A stretch of DNA of 37,970 nt, taken from positions 1-37,970 of the IMG/VR virus record IMGVR_UViG_3300044622_000909. One strand, written 5' to 3'. This DNA comes from a virus. The notes under the pieces are model-generated. The model searched no databases. It saw nothing but the letters and a program-made list of their open reading frames with translations, and was not told the origin of the DNA. Below, piece by piece: positions 8,198-11,863 of this stretch; the stretch's first letter is position 1, and each line of letters starts with the position of its first letter. Both the position numbers and the translations under genes were made by a program.

Positions 8198-8935
8198 TTA
8201 TTGTTTCATTGATAGTTTTTTATCAATAATTTTAGTTGGTAGGTCGTATAATTTTTCAATATAACCATTTCTTCTAAGGAGTTTAAATACCAAATTTTCT
8301 AAAGACATTTCACCACCTTTTTCTAATCCACAATTTCTAAAATTTTTTAATTTTTCTTTATATTTTTTTACAATATTTTTTATTTCTTCAGGGTCTTCGT
8401 CTTCTATGTTGTCAACAACACCATCAATAATTCTCATCCATTGTTTGGATCTTTCTTTAATTAATTCTTTGTCTATAGTTTCTTTATTAATTTTTTTAGG
8501 TTCATTAATCCACATATCATAAAGAATTGAATATACCCCACTACTAAATGCTTCTGTGTTTTCATCTTGAACAAAACACTCAACATCATACCCAAACATA
8601 TTTATATTATGTTTTTGGTTAAAAATAATTTTTTTCAAATCAAAAAATTCTAAATACAAATCTTTGGTGTTTTCAGAAAATTGATTAAAATTTACAACAA
8701 TATGTAAATCTATATCTGAATATTTTGACCAATTATAGTTAACAAGAGATCCGATCATAATTATGTCGGTGATAATAACATCAACACCTAATGAATCAAT
8801 AAAAATATTTGAGGTTTCTAAAAGTTTTTTTCTAACTTCAGATTTTAAAGTATAAGATTTACCATCTTTTTCCCAAACTTTTGGGTTGAGGTTATCTTGT
8901 ATTTTAAAACTATTAATTAATTCTGCGTCCATCAT
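8198..8935 (-). CDS. nucleotidyltransferase-fold protein
   Basis: A 245-residue protein starting MMDAELINSF. The frame is open to a TTG at 8947, but that codon would lie inside the TATTTATA motif, so the ATG pair at 8930-8935 is preferred. Residues 62-82 read GSLVNYNWSKYSDIDLHIVV, the GS-x10-DxD signature of the polymerase-beta-like nucleotidyltransferase superfamily, with catalytic D74 and D76. The rest is charged and helical, with no second recognisable domain. Family members add nucleotides to RNA, proteins or small molecules. Minimal members occur in toxin-antitoxin pairs, so phage defence or counter-defence is possible, but no partner gene is evident next to it. Substrate unknown. Confidence 0.7.
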   Translation of the reverse strand: MMDAELINSFKIQDNLNPKVWEKDGKSYTLKSEVRKKLLETSNIFIDSLGVDVIITDIIMIGSLVNYNWSKYSDIDLHIVVNFNQFSENTKDLYLEFFDLKKIIFNQKHNINMFGYDVECFVQDENTEAFSSGVYSILYDMWINEPKKINKETIDKELIKERSKQWMRIIDGVVDNIEDEDPEEIKNIVKKYKEKLKNFRNCGLEKGGEMSLENLVFKLLRRNGYIEKLYDLPTKIIDKKLSMKQ

Positions 8936-8936
8936 A

Positions 8937-8944
8937 TATAAATA
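8937..8944 (-). promoter_or_regulatory. late-type motif TATTTATA abutting a start codon
   Basis: TATTTATA on the minus strand, 1 base before the ATG of the nucleotidyltransferase gene. If it is a promoter for this gene the transcript would be leaderless or start inside the gene. Confidence 0.4.
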
Positions 8945-8959
8945 CAACGTTATTATAAA

Positions 8960-9205
8960 TTAACCTAGCTTATTGTACTTGTATTTTTTTGCGATTTGTA
9001 AATTAAAGTAATTACCCTGAGATGGTGCGGATCTAAATTCCGTATATGATTGATGTGGTACATTATCATATTCATACTTAATACCATTTTTAAATTCCAC
9101 AATTAATTTTTTTGTTGCGGTATCATACTCACTTCTTACAACATTAGATGATTGAACCTCGTTCAATATTTTTGTTCCAACATATTCTTCTTTTAAGATT
9201 GCCAT
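8960..9205 (-). CDS. KTSC-domain protein, 81 aa
   Basis: A small protein whose residues 19-81 match the KTSC domain: VRSEYDTATKKLIVEFKNG, then Y-x-Y-x-x-VP (YEYDNVP), and a C-terminal segment SAPSQGNYFNLQIAKKYKY with the conserved S-x-G-x-(Y/F)-(F/L)-N. KTSC domains are named after a lysyl-tRNA synthetase C-terminal extension and are frequent as stand-alone small proteins in phages and bacteria; a nucleic-acid-binding role is suspected but not shown. It lies between the UVR-motif protein and the nucleotidyltransferase on the same strand. Confidence 0.8.
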   Translation of the reverse strand: MAILKEEYVGTKILNEVQSSNVVRSEYDTATKKLIVEFKNGIKYEYDNVPHQSYTEFRSAPSQGNYFNLQIAKKYKYNKLG

Positions 9206-9237: not shown

Positions 9238-9263
9238 TAAAAAATCCACCCTTTTGGGTGGAT
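9238..9263 (-). terminator. rho-independent terminator
   Basis: ATCCACCC and GGGTGGAT arms with a 4-base loop; on the minus strand a T-run follows. It ends the UVR-motif gene just downstream of its stop. Confidence 0.8.
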
Positions 9264-9268
9264 CTTAA

Positions 9269-9640
9269 TTATTTTAACTTGTTTATCTGATCACGATATT
9301 CAATGGACTTTTCAAATTCTTGATTCTTTATTGATTCGTCTAATTTGGATTGTAGTTCAAATATTTTTTCTTTATTCTCCTCCAATTTTTTTATCTTATC
9401 ACGTAACTCTACGGCTTCCTCAAAATTTTGATCTTCTATTGCCAAAATTAATTTATCTTTTAAATCAATCAAATCATCACCTTCAGTTTTACGAGTCATG
9501 TAGGTATAGGAAAAAGATCCATCTGGGGATTTATAGGTTTTTTTAGTCCAATTCTTATCATCTAAAAATGATGAACTTAAACTCATTCGTTCTGAGAACA
9601 TTTCATTAAAAATTTTATCAAAATTTCTAAAATTAAACAT
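9269..9640 (-). CDS. UVR-motif protein, possible Clp adaptor
   Basis: A 123-residue protein with two tandem UVR motifs in its C-terminal half: DLKDKLILAIEDQNFEEAVELRDKI (about 59-83) and ELQSKLDESIKNQEFEKSIEYRDQI (about 95-119), each a helical hairpin with the typical (N/E)(F/Y)E.A..(L/Y)RD core. UVR motifs mediate contacts in UvrB-UvrC and also occur in ClpC and its partner McsA. The N-terminal half starts MFNFRNFDKIFNEMFSE and holds a short beta-like segment, with no zinc cysteines, so it is not a full McsA. It is divergent from the ClpC-like gene, with paired palindromes between them. This suggests a common regulator and perhaps a functional pair (inference). Confidence 0.7.
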   Translation of the reverse strand: MFNFRNFDKIFNEMFSERMSLSSSFLDDKNWTKKTYKSPDGSFSYTYMTRKTEGDDLIDLKDKLILAIEDQNFEEAVELRDKIKKLEENKEKIFELQSKLDESIKNQEFEKSIEYRDQINKLK

Positions 9641-9706
9641 AGTATTATTTTTTATAGTTTATTATTTTTACCTTTTTTTACTAAATATGTGCCAAACCAT
9701 AAAATA

Positions 9707-9750
9707 TGACAAAATGTCAGTTAGTATTTTTTTACCATGACATTTTGTCA
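9707..9750. promoter_or_regulatory. paired palindromic operator candidate
   Basis: TGACAAAATGTCA at 9707-9719 and TGACATTTTGTCA at 9738-9750. Each has 5-bp arms TGACA/TGTCA around 3 bases, and the two 13-mers are exact reverse complements. Their centres are 31 bp apart, close to three helical turns. They lie in the divergent region between the UVR-motif gene and the ClpC-like gene, as expected for a dimeric regulator's operators; together they could also fold into a 13-bp hairpin. Confidence 0.6.
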
Positions 9751-9802
9751 AAAGGTATACTTTTTAAACTTGATTTACTATTTTTTAATAAAACAAAAAG
9801 AT

Positions 9803-11863
9803 ATGATTGAATTTATGGATGAAAACGATAAAGGTAAAAAAAAGACAGATGGGGGAACACCAGTTTTAGATAACTTTAGTAAGGATTTAAATAAATTGGC
9901 AAGTGAAGGAAAATTAGATCCTGTAATTGGTCGTGAAAAGGAAATTTTTAGAATTGCACAAGTATTATCTCGTAGAAAGAAAAATAACCCAATAATCATT
10001 GGTGAGCCAGGTGCAGGTAAAACTGCAATTGTTGAGGGACTTGCAATGATGATACATAATGGTGAATGTCCAAAAAATTTATCAGATAAAAGAATCGTAT
10101 CTTTAGATATTAACTCTATTGTTGCAGGTACAAAATATAGAGGTCAATTTGAGGAAAGAATGAAGATTATCATTGAGGAACTTCAAATGGCTCCAAATAT
10201 CATAATTTTTATTGATGAGATCCACACAATGGTTGGTGCTGGTAATAGTTCAGGATCTTTAGACGCATCCAACATATTCAAACCTGCGTTATCTCGTGGT
10301 GAACTTCAATGTATTGGGGCAACAACTTTAGATGAGTATCGTAGACATTTTGAAAAGGATGGCGCATTAGAAAGAAGATTCCAAAAAATTGTTATTGATC
10401 CATCTACCAAAGAAGAAACCTTTGAAATCCTTAAACAAAGTAAGGGGAAATATGAAGAACATCACAAAGTTAACTATACTGATGAGGCATTGTTATTATG
10501 TGTAGAATTAGCCGATCGTTATATTACAGATCGTGAATTTCCTGATAAGGCATTTGATATTTTAGATGAGGTTGGATCAAGAATGCAAATTGACATTAAA
10601 CTTCCTGAAATTATTGAAAAATTAAAACAGGATGCTCAAAATATTAAAAAAGAAAAGGTAGATGTTATTAAAAAACAAAACTACGAACAAGCCGCAGAAT
10701 TACGTGATAAAGAACGTAAAATTTTAACTGATTTGGAAAACGAAAAGAAAAAATTTGACAATGAACTTAAAACAAGTAAACGTGGTATTCCAGAAGAGAT
10801 AATTTATGAGGTAGTTTCAAATATGACTAAAATACCTGTAAGTAAGATAAATATTGATGAGAAAAATTCTTTAGTTAATTTAGAATCAACATTAAACACT
10901 AACGTTATTGGTCAAGAAGAAGCCGTTGGTAAAATATCTAAATCAATTAGAAGAAATCGTGTTGGAATTAAAGATCCAAATAGACCTATCGGTTCATTCA
11001 TCTTTTTAGGGTCTACAGGTGTTGGTAAAACATTCTTAGCAAAACAATTAGCAAAAGAAATATTCGGTAGTGAGGATAATCTTATCCGTGTGGATATGTC
11101 CGAATACCAAGAAAAACACACAATATCAAGATTAATTGGATCTCCTCCAGGATATGTAGGACACGAAGAAGGTGGACAACTTACAGAACAAGTTAAGAAC
11201 AAACCTTATTGTGTTATTTTATTTGATGAGATTGAGAAGGCAAATAAAGACATATTCTCAACATTATTACAGATGTTAGATGATGGACATTTAACTGATG
11301 GGTTAGGTAGAAAGATCAATTTTAAGAATTGTTTGATTATCATGACATCTAACATTGGGGTTAGAAAATTACAAGACTTTGGTACAGGTGTTGGTTTCAA
11401 ATCAAGTAACTCAAGTGAAGTTGTCCAAGAAGAACAAAAAAGAGATGTTCTTAAAAAAGAACTTAGTAAATTTTTCGCCCCTGAATTTTTAAATAGAATT
11501 GATGATGTTGTTATATTTAACTCTCTAAATAAAGATAACATTGATAAAATTGTAAAATTAGAAATTGATATTTTAGTTAAAAGACTAAAATCTATGAAGT
11601 ATAATTTCACATATGAAAATTCAATAATTGATTTAATTTCAAAAGTTGGTTTTGATGAGATATTTGGGGCAAGACCAATTAAAAGAGCAATTCAAAATAA
11701 AATAGAAGATTTAATATCTGAAAAAATCTTAACAGGTGAAGTTACAGAAAACAAAGATTATAGGTTATTTGTTAAAACAGAAAATGATGAACAAATAATT
11801 GATCTTGAAGAGGGGGTATTAATAGAACCTAAGAAAAAAGTTAGAAAGAAAAAGGGAGAATAA
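9803..11863 (+). CDS. ClpC-like AAA+ unfoldase without N-domain
   Basis: A 686-residue double AAA+ protein of the Clp/Hsp100 class. I chose the ATG at 9803 (MIEFMDENDK) because the frame upstream overlaps the palindromes and reads as non-conserved hydrophobic sequence. The first AAA domain has Walker A GEPGAGKT (67-74), Walker B IIIFIDE (133-139) and pore loop KYRG (111-114). A middle segment VIKKQNYEQAAELRDKE (288-304) is a UVR motif as in ClpC. The second AAA domain has GSTGVGKT (403-410), pore loop GYVG (450-453), VILFDE (471-476) and GVGF (529-532), the loop that ClpC uses to dock on ClpP. The usual N-terminal adaptor/substrate domain is absent. It probably unfolds proteins, perhaps feeding host ClpP or remodelling phage or host complexes. 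Confidence 0.9.
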   Translation: MIEFMDENDKGKKKTDGGTPVLDNFSKDLNKLASEGKLDPVIGREKEIFRIAQVLSRRKKNNPIIIGEPGAGKTAIVEGLAMMIHNGECPKNLSDKRIVSLDINSIVAGTKYRGQFEERMKIIIEELQMAPNIIIFIDEIHTMVGAGNSSGSLDASNIFKPALSRGELQCIGATTLDEYRRHFEKDGALERRFQKIVIDPSTKEETFEILKQSKGKYEEHHKVNYTDEALLLCVELADRYITDREFPDKAFDILDEVGSRMQIDIKLPEIIEKLKQDAQNIKKEKVDVIKKQNYEQAAELRDKERKILTDLENEKKKFDNELKTSKRGIPEEIIYEVVSNMTKIPVSKINIDEKNSLVNLESTLNTNVIGQEEAVGKISKSIRRNRVGIKDPNRPIGSFIFLGSTGVGKTFLAKQLAKEIFGSEDNLIRVDMSEYQEKHTISRLIGSPPGYVGHEEGGQLTEQVKNKPYCVILFDEIEKANKDIFSTLLQMLDDGHLTDGLGRKINFKNCLIIMTSNIGVRKLQDFGTGVGFKSSNSSEVVQEEQKRDVLKKELSKFFAPEFLNRIDDVVIFNSLNKDNIDKIVKLEIDILVKRLKSMKYNFTYENSIIDLISKVGFDEIFGARPIKRAIQNKIEDLISEKILTGEVTENKDYRLFVKTENDEQIIDLEEGVLIEPKKKVRKKKGE

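Follow-up and report, generated by a model that had tools for sequence, protein, structure and literature searches.

Promoters of the NtrC-type sigma54 systems, such as those of glnA/NtrC and PspF, combine a -24/-12 element with paired dyads that lie about three helical turns apart, and are served by an AAA+ activator with a Fis-type helix-turn-helix. In the CIRCE/HrcA, CtsR and HAIR/HspR systems, small repeated or palindromic repressor operators are found at sigmaA-type promoters before chaperone and clp genes.

The accessible part of a study that used position-specific matrices reports sigma54 enrichment for IbpA/Hsp20, GroES, GroEL, GrpE, DnaK, DnaJ and ClpA-type genes in Flavobacteriia and relatives (Bacteroidota) (PMC12316311). 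Neither "UAS" nor "upstream activat" occurs in the text of that paper, and its sole use of "phage" is in phage shock protein. Moraphages, according to the portion available of their description, are large, mainly freshwater phages that carry DnaK, DnaJ, Hsp20 and Clp and have predicted Flavobacteriia hosts (PMC12619734). Available sections on the bS21 phages place Hsp20 and Clp near bS21, and Flavobacteriia or Bacteroidota hosts are predicted for the moraphages and bS21 phages (PMC9723584). A full-text literature search, with most subscription journals outside its coverage, yielded no paper that we recognized as concerning phage promoters of the kind described below.

The DNA analyzed here, which we call the window in its entirety, is a virus record of 37,970 bases in which portal and terminase genes are present. 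A preliminary description had claimed two complementary 13-bp palindromes 31 bp apart in the region between divergent clp and UVR genes, and both were confirmed (Table 1). Judging from sequence comparisons, we consider it probable that these twins are enhancer sites (upstream activating sequences, UAS) at which a sigma54 activator (bacterial enhancer-binding protein, bEBP) encoded by the host and belonging to the Bacteroidota heat-shock regulon would act, and that they were captured by phage chaperone cassettes.

Table 1. Positions of the twin palindromes and surrounding features in the window
Feature	Positions	Strand	Description
Palindrome 1, TGACAAAATGTCA	9707..9719	none	Promoter-proximal putative UAS of the leftward promoter; kept in related phage loci
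Palindrome 2, TGACATTTTGTCA	9738..9750	none	Distal putative UAS, 31 bp (~3 helical turns) from palindrome 1
Sigma54-type -24/-12 element, TTTGGCACATATTTAGT	9680..9696	minus	GG-N10-GT; its GG (9693-9692) is separated from palindrome 1 by 13 nt; reads into UVR gene
UVR gene	9269..9640	minus	Encodes 123 aa containing UVR (UvrB/UvrC) motifs; two stretches match PF02151, E 7.7e-14
Intrinsic terminator	9241..9266	minus	Directly 3' of UVR gene; fold -16.4 kcal/mol, z -4.74
clp	9803..11863	plus	Clp-type AAA+ ATPase, divergent from UVR gene; AAA_2, AAA_lid_9, ClpB_D2-small

The sequences TGACAAAATGTCA and TGACATTTTGTCA are reverse complements, each with perfect 5-bp arms, and are of the type TGACA-N3-TGTCA; the 31 bp between them is measured from start to start. 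An exact search of the window for TGACANNNTGTCA returned two matches, which are the twins alone, while 100 dinucleotide shuffles gave a mean of 0.05 matches and no shuffle with two. When two mismatches were allowed, the whole window contained no excess of the palindrome (16 found versus 22.2 expected), and therefore the signal is an exact pair rather than a dispersed repeat.

The earliest listed ATG for clp, at 9737, would overlap palindrome 2. The alignment of relatives begins instead at ATG 9803 (MIEFMDEN), and among the close relatives L003-L006 the distance from the site to the corresponding ATG is -65 or -66. Because this distance shifts by one base, the 9737 start is disfavored, and both palindromes are therefore most likely intergenic. 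The terminator that follows the UVR gene suggests that the UVR transcript comprises a single gene, and a second terminator is located at the end of clp. On the 3' side of the UVR gene, the minus strand carries a KTSC-domain gene (8960-9205) and a nucleotidyltransferase-like gene (8198-8947). Genes of these kinds adjoin clp in other phages that have no UVR or chaperone gene there.

Relatives of the Clp protein were collected from viral contigs, and the best 80 of 598 were kept, which together with the window provided 81 clp loci. In the best 80 of 598, every exact copy of the motif falls between 58 and 108 bases upstream of where the clp match begins, and the rest of the DNA fetched for these loci has no exact copy. 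Divergent genes were classified by short sequence patterns, with Pfam confirming a single member each for Hsp20, DnaK and UVR in addition to the UVR gene of the window. By this classification, a site (exact or with one mismatch) is present in 35/35 loci with a UVR neighbor, and this conservation in related phages is a positive outcome for a check that had been suggested at the outset. Hsp20 or DnaK occupies the place of the UVR gene in some relatives, and the site is present in 8/8 and 4/5 such loci, respectively, as well as in 3/5 with a KTSC gene. It is found in 0 of the 28 loci that have other divergent neighbors (13 with a small "EGW"-motif protein, 11 with a nucleotidyltransferase-like gene, 3 with some other gene and 1 where the contig is cut off).

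Because the presence of the site tracks the divergent gene, we assign the site chiefly to the leftward gene, which is of proteostasis type, rather than to clp. The associated promoter reads left into UVR, and sites are missing from most clp loci that have no UVR, Hsp20 or DnaK neighbor. The loci with a DnaK/Hsp70 gene divergent from clp are L022, L028, L030, L036 and L067, and Pfam HSP70 was confirmed for one of them. Clp genes that lack the twins (L008, L012, L013 and similar) have in common an ACTTTT / TTACCTTTG-like upstream promoter region, which is perhaps a constitutive clp promoter.

The promoter association claimed for the palindromes is supported by the sigma54-type element to their left. 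This element fits the sigma54 pattern (-24 GG and -12 GC 10 nt apart in a YTGGYAY...TTGC context) with a variant -12 box, which reads GT rather than the canonical GC; host chaperone promoters also show GT. When scored by the sigma54 part alone of a host-trained model, with the palindrome excluded, it comes first among the 75,906 window positions scored, and by the UAS part alone the window site ranks 3 of 75,912. On the right, or clp-side, flank of the window there is no sigma54 element (best score -8.2), and clp's own promoter in the window is probably not of sigma54 type.

Similar asymmetry is evident in the relatives. A strict GG-N10-G at 12-14 nt occurs on the left in 18/35 non-identical clp loci with an exact site, versus 2/35 on the right. 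With one shared cut-off for the sigma54 score per clp locus, 17/34 pass on the left, 3/34 on the right, and 3 of 1,620 random 60-mers pass; the window's left score was taken directly, the per-locus tally having used a two-mismatch site at 9593 as its outermost site.

Some loci depart from this asymmetry. The clp side scores for sigma54 as well in the distant loci L073, L079 and L080, and the site is kept beside a KTSC gene in L004, L009 and L031, whose left side has no sigma54 element. In these loci, the sites may also serve clp. Both sets of loci would suit a bidirectional activator that has clp as its main target and works with a housekeeping sigma factor on the right side. We regard such an activator as unlikely, however, because the 28 clp loci with other or no divergent gene are without a site, and because the right flank of the window has the poor score given above.

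Among the matches listed from a whole-genome twin scan (at least 119 stretches), the single Bacteroidota match was in Kordia zhangzhouensis, where a twin with 32-bp spacing precedes the organism's own hsp20. Exact twins are present in 2/299 Flavobacteriaceae genomes, Kordia and one more, both 32 bp apart upstream of the genome's own hsp20 and with GG 13 nt beyond the site. More generally, the upstream regions of 30 hsp20, 15 groES and 13 clpB genes from Bacteroidota mostly contain sigma54-type elements with degenerate palindrome copies at the same distance. For hsp20, one locus was taken from each of 30 genomes; 158 genomes had been searched, and 150 of them gave a match. Sigma54 scores of at least 16 were reached by 47/59 host chaperone upstreams versus 19/101 control genes of the same loci, and among upstreams with such scores at least eight of the ten UAS bases are present at the fixed offset in 21/47 chaperone versus 3/19 control cases. 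Host sites vary more than phage sites, with most being degenerate and exact twins rare.

A weight matrix was trained on 46 of 58 host upstreams, namely those with a sigma54 score of at least 16, including the Kordia hsp20 promoter with its exact twins. The UAS columns, which had not been used in picking the training sites, nonetheless show TGACA-N3-TGTCA. When both strands of the window were scanned with this matrix, positions 9678-9721 on the minus strand received 30.5 bits and the runner-up place 11.3; none of 200 order-2 Markov shuffles of the window reached 30.5 (maximum 22.2). The window thus has in common with host hsp20, groES and clpB promoters the UAS, the spacing and the -24/-12 element that characterize the predicted Bacteroidota chaperone sigma54 regulon. 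RpoN is encoded by 31/31 Bacteroidota genomes searched.

Spacing between the palindromes provides a separate line of evidence. When twins linked to chaperone genes are considered (45 distinct cases), spacings fall at 19-21, 29-33 or 41-43 bp, with a phase concentration of R=0.86 at 10.5 bp. Phase is weaker (R=0.35) for 66 other distinct viral twins, which do not belong to the chaperone set. The window twins, at 31 bp, are likewise paired dyads that keep helical phase and stand upstream of a -24/-12 element. In the hsp20 loci L089, L118, L120 and L183, about one extra helical turn lies between the site and the GG; in L089, it is an 11-bp insertion that separates the site from the -24 box. Both the phased spacing and this one-turn insertion would fit an activator that is kept on one face of the DNA. 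The preliminary description had spoken of twin operators on one helix face, and paired, in-phase sites, suited to a dimeric regulator, are supported. Its wording as plain operators fits less well, the sites being better read as enhancers of a sigma54-type promoter.

Scans beyond the clp loci extend the pattern. A twin-site scan of viral contigs (at least 119 stretches) returned many matches away from clp that are upstream of phage hsp20. In the viral and genome twin scans, the site precedes a match to the Hsp20 model in 20 loci, 18 of them viral, and most have the same -24/-12 element. A further hsp20 locus from the genome scan (L291) has a G+C content of 0.57 and 42-bp spacing. Both palindromes and the -24/-12 element could be aligned in register for 12 promoters: eight clp-linked ones from phages (L023 and L125 share a contig), another two that precede phage hsp20, and the two of host hsp20. 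The host-trained matrix found 57 distinct places of at least 18 bits in 199 viral loci, versus 1 in one Markov shuffle, and 45 of the 57 precede UVR, Hsp20 or DnaK genes.

In 22 phage records, mostly picked for having a site, there are 48 occurrences of the exact motif versus one of the reversed pattern. A genome-wide phage regulon was considered and dropped, as many extra sites in 13 fetched regions fall within genes. In one phage record of 245,874 b (G452), a lone exact site at position 1239 of locus L473 precedes a gene that encodes a sigma70-type factor (Sigma70_r2), and GG-N10-GA follows after 13 nt. In this case, a sigma factor of the phage itself may be subject to the same host control.

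The matches listed from the whole-genome twin scan are mostly from Firmicutes, along with other twins that have G/C-rich cores. Many Firmicutes loci (L202-L320) contain TGACACNGTGTCA-like twins about 36 bp apart, and both they and the twins with G/C-rich cores look like operators of other regulators. To our eyes, these TGACA-N3-TGTCA-type twins resemble repressor operators, and the phage sites do sit between divergent genes, as would operators for a phage or host repressor that silences both the clp and UVR promoters until it is lost or inactivated. Nevertheless, a repressor is an improbable explanation, because the sites track the leftward gene rather than clp and, in hosts and phages, stand at a fixed 13 nt upstream of the -24/-12 element without overlapping it. 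That the pair has no regulatory role and reflects chance, hairpins or attachment-like repeats is scarcely credible: although the window has no palindrome excess at two mismatches, chance palindromes are ruled out by the shuffles and by conservation in relatives, and the conserved position, the phase and the match to the host-trained model all speak against this reading.

The most probable reading, in which the twins are UAS for a host bEBP, calls for an activator supplied by the cell. The regulator had been described as absent from the window, and this agrees with a search of 23 phage records for the sigma54-activator domain. The sole match in 19 records is the Clp ATPase itself, which is weak (29.7-37 bits), and four have no match, such that no bEBP was found in any of the 23. 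The regulator is most likely a host protein.

Kordia encodes two true bEBPs. The first is a receiver-AAA+ protein with no Pfam helix-turn-helix match and 11 residues after the lid domain. The second lacks a receiver, has its AAA+ domain at the very start and a Fis-type helix-turn-helix (HTH_8) at the end, and is encoded 2.1 kb from groES. This receiver-less kind was found in 15/15 genomes and in 16/16 others, within 3 kb of groES in 13 of the first 15, and Kordia, G120, G132 and G175 each have two bEBPs only. Elimination within a single host genome, together with linkage to groES, makes the receiver-less bEBP the likely first candidate for the activator. Its representatives (L330, L437-L451, L480-L495) have a long stretch between the AAA+ lid and the helix-turn-helix, and we speculate that this middle region could be the sensor. 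Both the candidate and RpoN are present in all 31 host genomes, even in the five with the lowest-scoring sampled hsp20 upstreams, and thus their presence does not discriminate.

We propose that a host bEBP, likely the receiver-less protein with a Fis-type helix-turn-helix encoded near groES, would bind as dimers at both palindromes, in phase on the DNA. The bound protein would then contact the sigma54 polymerase poised at the -24/-12 element, whose GG lies 13 nt from palindrome 1, and spend ATP to open the promoter. A short UVR-gene transcript would result that stops at the downstream terminator, and the same promoter would drive Hsp20 or DnaK in related phages. In this way, a phage proteostasis protein would be made while the host stress circuit is on. 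We infer the inducing signal from the target genes, and heat induction is a prediction of the same sort, as is any effect on clp. Against this proposal, one DnaK locus has no site, and the strict GG-N10-G was found on the left in just 18 of the 35 loci mentioned above. Many textbook sigma54 promoters also have their UAS farther from the -24 box than in the window.

With apparent sites for the host's heat-shock activator before one of its own stress genes, the phage seems to be connected to the stress alarm of the host. A phage lineage whose chaperone-type genes are placed under a stress promoter of host type offers a route to learning when and why phages make chaperones. For the bacteria, the UAS, the spacing and the -24/-12 element together define, at the level of sequence, a Bacteroidota-wide chaperone regulon, and a candidate activator that can be tested is named for it. 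We give about even chances to a broader proposal. In this proposal, the Bacteroidota heat-shock master switch would be sigma54 plus the receiver-less activator beside groES, recognizing TGACA-N3-TGTCA; large phages of these hosts would repeatedly have brought proteostasis genes of their own (UVR, Hsp20 and DnaK, plus a sigma70-type factor in a single phage) under its control, and part of the phage program would depend on how stressed the host is.

Chaperone sigma54 targets are shared between this case and the prediction in the accessible part of PMC12316311. The moraphages and bS21 phages have the same kinds of genes as found here, and the available portions of their descriptions are silent on control by host stress promoters (PMC12619734; PMC9723584).

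Like CIRCE/HrcA, CtsR and HAIR/HspR, the window has small sites at chaperone or clp genes, but their sequence is different and the promoter is of sigma54 type. On direct reading, positions 9700-9755 contain no inverted repeat of the CIRCE consensus and no direct repeat of the CtsR consensus. The arrangement is closer to glnA/NtrC and PspF, with a -24/-12 element, dyads about three turns apart and a candidate AAA+ activator that has a Fis-type helix-turn-helix. Unlike those systems, the sites here read TGACA-N3-TGTCA and lie 13 nt from the -24 box, the targets are chaperones, and the promoter is carried by a phage.
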